Under the pieces are notes generated by a model that searched no databases, was not told the DNA's origin, and saw only the letters and a list, made by a program, of their open reading frames with translations. From Pseudomonadota bacterium (GTDB taxonomy: Bacteria > Pseudomonadota > Gammaproteobacteria > Burkholderiales > Thiobacillaceae), in contig JAJZSR010000007.1 of the NCBI GenBank assembly GCA_021849595.1, positions 1 to 38,634 on the forward strand: a stretch of DNA of 38,634 nucleotides, given 5' to 3'. Position 1 is the stretch's first letter, and the number at the start of each line of letters is the position of its first letter. Shown in pieces: positions 27,511 through 27,704 of the stretch. The translations under genes and the position numbers were made by a program.

Positions 27511-27704
27511 TTATTGAGGCGGCACAAATGAACTTGAATGCGGCAATGTCTCGAATCTCGGCCACGGCACGGGATAAGCCTTCATGCCGCCTCGATAACC
27601 CATTGTTTAAACTGGTTATTGATCCGGCACACGGGACTGAATCTTGGCCGGTGGATAGCCATACGTCATTCACATTTTCAAGATCATTCGTGCCGGATCA
27701 ATAA
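27511..27704. repeat. Composite double stem-loop repeat, copy 3 (best preserved)
   Basis: Module A 27511-27598 (88 bp): arms TTATTGAGGCGGCA and TGCCGCCTCGATAA, one mismatch. Spacer of 17 bp. Module B 27616-27704 (89 bp): perfect 15-bp arms TTATTGATCCGGCAC. The outermost 28 bases of A and of B (read inward) agree at 24 positions, differing at GG/TC and two others, so the element is also bounded by long terminal inverted repeats. Interiors of A and B are otherwise unlike copy 1 except for the ACTTGAA-type box next to the outer arms. Confidence 0.88.

Follow-up and report, generated by a model that had tools for sequence, protein, structure and literature searches.

RUP and Nezha duplicate a TA dinucleotide, and REPINs and BIMEs, with their RAYT, use a Y1 transposase and are not known to produce a TA duplication. 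The passages of PMC3049150 that deal with them describe RUP of Streptococcus pneumoniae as a 107-bp element with ends that resemble IS630-Spn1 and that pair together, and propose mobilization by ISNpu3-like elements for Nezha of cyanobacteria. REPINs and BIMEs carry two hairpins per mobile unit, according to an excerpt of PMC2817692. MITEPsy1 of Pseudomonas syringae is described, in sections of PMC3189936, as a 100-nt MITE that has IS-like ends, moves in vivo, probably derives from an IS5-type parent and makes a 4-nt duplication (CTAG or YTAA). Among larger elements, IS1471 of plasmid pIJB1 (NC_019378) and its relatives belong to the IS630 family; by scan, the right end of IS1471 is TATTGATCCGGCC and its left end is TATAGATGAGGCC.

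We describe a two-module repeat at positions 27511–27704 of a 38,634-nt stretch of Thiobacillaceae DNA, called the window throughout (assembly GCA_021849595.1, contig JAJZSR010000007.1). The duplication of TA at its insertion sites and the match of its ends to IS630-family ends identify it, with high confidence, as an IS630-family MITE that is probably moved in trans by IS1471-like transposases of Thiobacillaceae. It has the end motif TATTGATCCGGCC and the TA at its ends in common with IS1471-like elements, but IS1471, in a comparison based on a single copy, is about 1.1 kb long, carries a transposase gene and lacks the two-stem plan. Whereas the two ends of RUP pair together according to PMC3049150, each end here pairs with the inner arm of its own module. 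The TA duplication and IS630 ends distinguish the element from REPINs and BIMEs, and the quoted sections of PMC3189936 outline no two-stem plan for MITEPsy1. The features of this copy, and of two further copies in the window, are as follows.

27511–27598, plus strand: module A, made up of an outer arm, a loop of about 60 nt and an inner arm
27599–27615, plus strand: 17-bp spacer between A and B, departing from the usual CCGAGGTT core
27616–27704, plus strand: module B, made up of an inner arm, a loop and an outer arm
27512–27513, no strand: left TA; analogy to the other loci suggests that it is one copy of the duplicated target
27702–27703, no strand: right TA, read as the second copy of the target TA by the same analogy
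27532–27538, plus strand: ACTTGAA box of the outer left end (bases 22–28)
27677–27683, minus strand: outer-right-end box, TCTTGAA, which has one mismatch (bases 22–28 from the right)
11607–11795, plus strand: second window copy (A 11607–11687, spacer 11688–11704, B 11705–11795)
24852–25000, plus strand: third window copy, of the short-A form (A 24852–24890, spacer 24891–24908, B 24909–25000)

The original prediction, made from the sequence of the window, described two stem-loops with a 17-bp spacer inside 28-nt outer inverted repeats, and the measurements agree, with 24 of the 28 bases in the outer repeats matching when counted by eye. It also held that each half folds on itself, which is exact for module B (arms 27615–27630 and 27690–27705, 16 nt, 100% complementary, with 59 nt between) and nearly so for module A (arms 27509–27524 and 27585–27600, 16 nt, 94% complementary, with 60 nt between), where one pair is broken. 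As it had stated, two arm positions distinguish A from B, and they are the same two on both sides, with GG..CC in A and TC..GA in B. Folded as single-stranded DNA, a 236-nt stretch reaches −46.3 kcal/mol, compared with −31.6 kcal/mol (sd 3.3) for shuffled sequences (z = −4.4; 0 of 200 shuffles as good). At the corresponding site in the congener G253, between priA and metF, both the element and an adjoining repeat are absent. That adjoining repeat, directly to the right at 27713–27823, is a different dispersed sequence of the CCCTCGCCC..GGGTGAGGG type, and repeats of its type make up 38 of the 49 G253 rows in our joined-flank search.

Further genomic copies, which the original prediction had anticipated, are plentiful: genome and pattern searches found at least 20 two-module copies in the source genome, together with 5 that are partial, interrupted or solo, and the two additional window copies had gone unlisted. 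The element is 84–200 bp long, is dispersed, and contains no transposase frame by inspection. We extracted 55 distinct copies from 15 genomes, allotting copies to genomes by hand; the set required both modules and was filtered on arm complementarity and spacer, which favors paired stems, and it leaves out the 24852 window copy, L226, L227 and partial copies. The plan is constant throughout this set, with the order A, a 16–20-bp spacer, then B. Module A occurs in a long form of 81–88 nt (9 of 55 copies, including the one at 27511) and in a short form, a near-perfect palindrome of 40–44 nt (the other 46); module B measures 88–94 nt in 54 of the 55. Shrunken B modules that retain their arms and spacer occur at L074 495–588 (source genome, C125), as a palindrome of 35 nt, and at L198 1501–1584 (G322), as one of about 25 nt. 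The loops had been described as largely non-conserved. Near-identical copies elsewhere in the source genome, such as those on C92 and C151 (93% identical), mean that this is not so for all copies, but the copy at 27511 is divergent, its modules having best identities of 0.69 and 0.70 to the 54 other copies.

Several individual copies have features of their own. The 11607–11795 copy is also present at the same site in G253. The TAA stop codon of a uroporphyrinogen decarboxylase gene (24851–24853) coincides with the left edge of the 24852 copy, so the insertion kept or supplied the stop. A solo B at L066 504–594 (source genome, C212) shares 97% identity with a composite's B, and its flanks matched no empty site. 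At L065 259–484 (source genome, C168), the A loop is interrupted by a segment of about 226 bp whose 18-base ends, CCCAGATTATCCATTAGA and TCTAATGGACAATCTGGG, are inverted repeats, and which is probably another small, nested transposon.

We now turn to the insertion sites, where the original prediction had proposed a comparison with empty sites in relatives. Joined flanks from 11 source-genome loci were searched against two congeners, and those from 17 loci were then searched against 117 genomes. This gave 25 aligned locus-genome comparisons (10 + 12 + 3), in 11 of which the flanks reach the junction on both sides; the other 14, the 27511 copy among them, have no resolvable junction. The presence of the element differs between relatives, and an exact TA duplication is found in 6 of these 11 resolvable cases, which cover 3 of 6 loci. 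At L096, TTA..TAA with the element corresponds to an empty TTAA in G312, G322, G303 and G317; at L074, TTA..TAT corresponds to an empty TTAT in G253; and at L073, ATA..TAA corresponds to GTAA in G253, with a difference in the base beside the TA. The remaining comparisons are inexact: L064 against G253, with TCGA where TTAA is expected; L067 against both G253 and G252; L074 against G252, with no extra bases; and L115 against G252. Within the 55-copy set, 48 copies have TA at both ends, and a T precedes the element in 42 and an A follows it in 47, which points to TTAA as the preferred target. We also considered that the element replaces 4 bp of its target, and dropped this idea; the targets are TTAA, TTAT and GTAA, with TA duplicated. 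An element of 93% identity lies at unrelated sites in G328 and G353.

The transposases that might act on such ends were sought with two queries. A search with PF13358 (DDE_3) gave matches at seven loci in 5 of 9 genomes. One of these genomes, G355, has on C62 an element of 1107 bp whose transposase gene is broken and whose ends resemble those of the repeat, and the C-terminal piece of that transposase matched 15 of 117 genomes. Neither query found an IS630 transposase in the source genome, which is 91% complete. We inspected end pairs at 22 loci, consisting of 21 from the C-terminal-piece search and L208. TA-anchored pairs of TATTGA ends, or one-base variants, were found at G355:C62, G316:C11, G318:C3, G317:C227 (two loci) and G318:C26; one TA-anchored end of this type occurs at G341:C183 (two loci), and further TATTGA-type ends occur at G332:C41, G341:C98 and G321:C66. 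In a truncated IS630 copy on G341:C183, the end that directly follows the stop codon has 26 of 27 bases in common with the repeat's B end. Three other IS ends match the repeat's ends at 19–21 of 27 bases, and seven of the 11 IS ends match at only 14–18, compared with a shuffle maximum of 15–18. No intact IS with the exact ends of the repeat was found among the IS copies examined.

Two intact transposases are assigned by NCBIfam to the IS630 family (E = 7.8e-72 and 2.6e-68) and carry DDE_3, while the G355 fragment scores 92.3 bits, below the cut-off of 100. One of the two intact transposases, that of G316:C108, is 85.9% identical to that of IS1471 from pIJB1. In viral contigs, no relative of the transposase was found. 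When aligned with eight IS stretches, the consensus of the whole repeat scores above 50 shuffles in G355, G318:C3 and G341; the spacer with inner B does so in the same three and, by one point, in G316:C11. We read these scores as the common end motif, since inner B begins with that motif. The idea that the spacer itself is common to the IS elements was set aside; no sign of it was seen, the spacer having been scored jointly with inner B.

These ends bear on the REPIN or IS200/605-type plan that the original prediction had suggested, in which the repeat would be a REPIN, a BIME or another IS200/605-type derivative that a Y1 (RAYT) transposase mobilizes by way of single-stranded hairpins. The two hairpins, the strong folding and the many copies are all as such a derivative would have them, and the search for a RAYT or TnpA gene that the prediction had called for yielded a single RAYT-like, IS200-like Y1 gene in the source genome (L089 1730–2710, C10), which shares its contig with one copy of the element. 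However, the repeats that border this gene are inverted GGGGTCAAACACGATTAT and ATAATCGTGTCTGACCCC sequences of the GGGGTCA type, different from those of our element; insertion duplicates TA; and the ends are common to DDE elements of the IS630 family. We consider such a derivative extremely improbable, and of the earlier proposal the mobile two-module repeat stands while its assignment to REPINs or IS200/605 does not.

Under the IS630 classification, the ends on which a transposase works can be considered through the distribution of the ACTTGAA-like box. We scored the box as a heptamer with at most one mismatch, using a motif derived from the same data (rate in shuffled sequences, 0.03). The prediction had placed it at a fixed distance inside the arm, and of the 54 copies with a long B, 36 indeed have a box that starts at base 22 from the outer right end. 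On the left, the outer end carries it in 5 of 9 long-A copies, always at base 22, and in 40 of 46 short-A copies, 36 of them at base 22. The inner arms repeat the outer 14–16 bases. Among inner ends, the box is found in 1 of 54 for B, 0 of 9 for long A and 27 of 46 for the palindromic short A. Among the IS630-type copies, the left end in G355 and the end in G341 carry ACTTGA at the same base. The two outer ends are likely the working ends.

The same distribution helps to decide whether A and B are one unit or two independent IS630-type MITEs that became neighbors by chance and still move separately. TA-TTGA-type ends flank each module on both sides, and the solo B on C212 has 97% identity to the B of one composite; both speak for separate movement. 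Against this, the order, orientation and spacer are constant in all 55 copies (in a set that required both modules), the exact empty sites lack A and B together, and the box is missing from 53 of the 54 inner B ends. We therefore regard two separately moving elements as very unlikely at present; a pair of MITEs fits better as the origin of the composite than as its present unit.

For the composite as a single IS630-family unit, the proposed mechanism would proceed as follows. The outer A end and the outer B end would serve as the transposase ends, each resembling TA-TTGATCCG with the ACTTGAA-like box at base 22. An IS1471-like IS630 transposase of Thiobacillaceae would act in trans, cutting at these outer ends, and the unit would be inserted at TA, preferably within TTAA, with duplication of the TA. 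We infer the mobilization in trans, the binding of the box and the reason why inner arms follow outer arms. Cut-and-paste transposition accounts for the outer ends, but does not by itself account for the compensation within the stems.

Compensation, which the original prediction had proposed from a single copy, is strong across the 55 copies, though not absolute, as a minority of cells hold uncompensated arm changes. Over 14 arm bases, the average agreement is 12.75 within A and 13.31 within B, compared with 10.42 between the two outer arms. Each module's own pairing exceeds the outer pairing in 54 of 55 copies, for A and for B alike, and in 47 of 55 copies both own pairings exceed every cross comparison. 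Position 8 of A is occupied by all four Watson-Crick pairs (24, 21, 7 and 2 copies), with one copy unpaired. In alignment A1, two-sided changes are seen at 7 of 32 pairs, compared with 2.1 (sd 1.0) in shuffles, with 6 of the 7 in A and 1 in B, and none of 500 shuffles reaches any of the five measures used; these pairing and two-sided-change shuffles are uncorrected for the relatedness of the copies. A weak tree, built from spacer and loop letters alone, gives 17 changes at A position 8, which is probably too high. Five pairs of copies, each pair occupying one shared site in two species, contain one compensated change (L225 and L115, where T-A becomes C-G in A) and several that are uncompensated, among them the decay that the A stem of the 11607 copy has undergone in G253. 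These uncompensated changes indicate that the stems are not firmly kept after insertion. In our view, pairing is instead maintained in the lineages that spread, or restored by template switching.

Stem mismatches were also counted by type. A.C exceeds G.T when cells are counted (37 to 13 in A, 13 to 4 in B, over 55 related copies), and the numbers of distinct kinds are only 14 to 8 in A and 7 to 4 in B. An excess of this type would favor folding of the B-to-A strand, weakly, since the copies are related.

A host function would be another way to keep stems paired, with the repeat acting as a structured RNA or transcription element, such as a 3′-end stem-loop, a terminator or a regulatory RNA. 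The two-sided stem changes would suit it, and so would the position of the copies, mostly between open frames or at their ends by a crude frame test, and the A.C excess, which is expected if the B-to-A strand folded as RNA, though the cells are not independent. Nevertheless, Rfam 15 gave 0 matches over the gathering score in the whole window, and no promoter or terminator pattern is present at the 27511 copy. By the same crude frame test, orientation to the neighboring genes has no clear bias (16, 15, 12 and 12 of 55), the occupied sites differ between relatives, and the 11607 copy has a decayed A stem in G253. We consider upkeep for the host very unlikely. We think that the stems owe their upkeep in the spreading lineages to selection for the folded form of the element, or to template-switch correction within a strand, rather than to a host function. 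A further reading, that the repeat is a cut-and-paste (DDE) mini-transposon whose spread needs a folded intermediate, with two stem-loops and the conserved linker between them selected as a whole in active lineages, is unlikely in our judgment. If it were true, inner arms that mostly lack the transposase box would still co-evolve with the outer arms, and an IS630-type element would have a life cycle in which single-stranded DNA or RNA folding plays a part.

The IS630-family MITE is centered on one bacterial family of sulfur bacteria related to Thiobacillus, probably the Thiobacillaceae. A covariance model, R1, built from 19 short-A copies, matches 35 of the family's 117 genomes (16 of 59 good-quality genomes; 4 of 12 genera) and 5 of 399 genomes across the order, one of them outside the family (G431), where the match appears by its sequence to be a degraded relative. 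The per-genome counts from R1 are not copy numbers, as at most 26 candidates were scored and the palindromic A matches on both strands, and searches of more than 40 genomes used stricter filters, by which weak copies were lost. Of 250 genomes of the order searched with a pattern, 3 gave a match, and that in G226 is judged to be chance. Plasmids gave no DNA match to the element. A core-pattern scan of named genome contigs returned 17 stretches, and inspection found the element in 9 of them. Seven are from Thiobacillus (L098, L102, L104, L107, L110, L112 and L113, the last with a broken A), two of these being T. denitrificans, and L101 is from a Hydrogenophilales bacterium. The ninth, L100 (DYGW01000044), is a MAG titled Thermoflexus sp.; its element stretches are identical to those of L112 (DYFW01000045), a Thiobacillus denitrificans MAG from the same sample series, and it is therefore probably a binning error.

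What sets the element apart is its fixed A-spacer-B plan, with two-sided stem compensation and a box that is nearly absent from the inner B ends. No description of a double-stem plan with compensation was found in the literature, as judged mostly from titles and with few subscription papers covered. With the IS630 assignment, a repeat found in 35 of the 117 genomes of this bacterial family can be placed in an element family, and both its target rule and the likely origin of its transposase are indicated. Its dozens of natural copies make it possible to ask why a cut-and-paste mini-transposon keeps two compensated hairpins, for which two causes are posed: selection for folding, or template-switch correction of near-palindromes.
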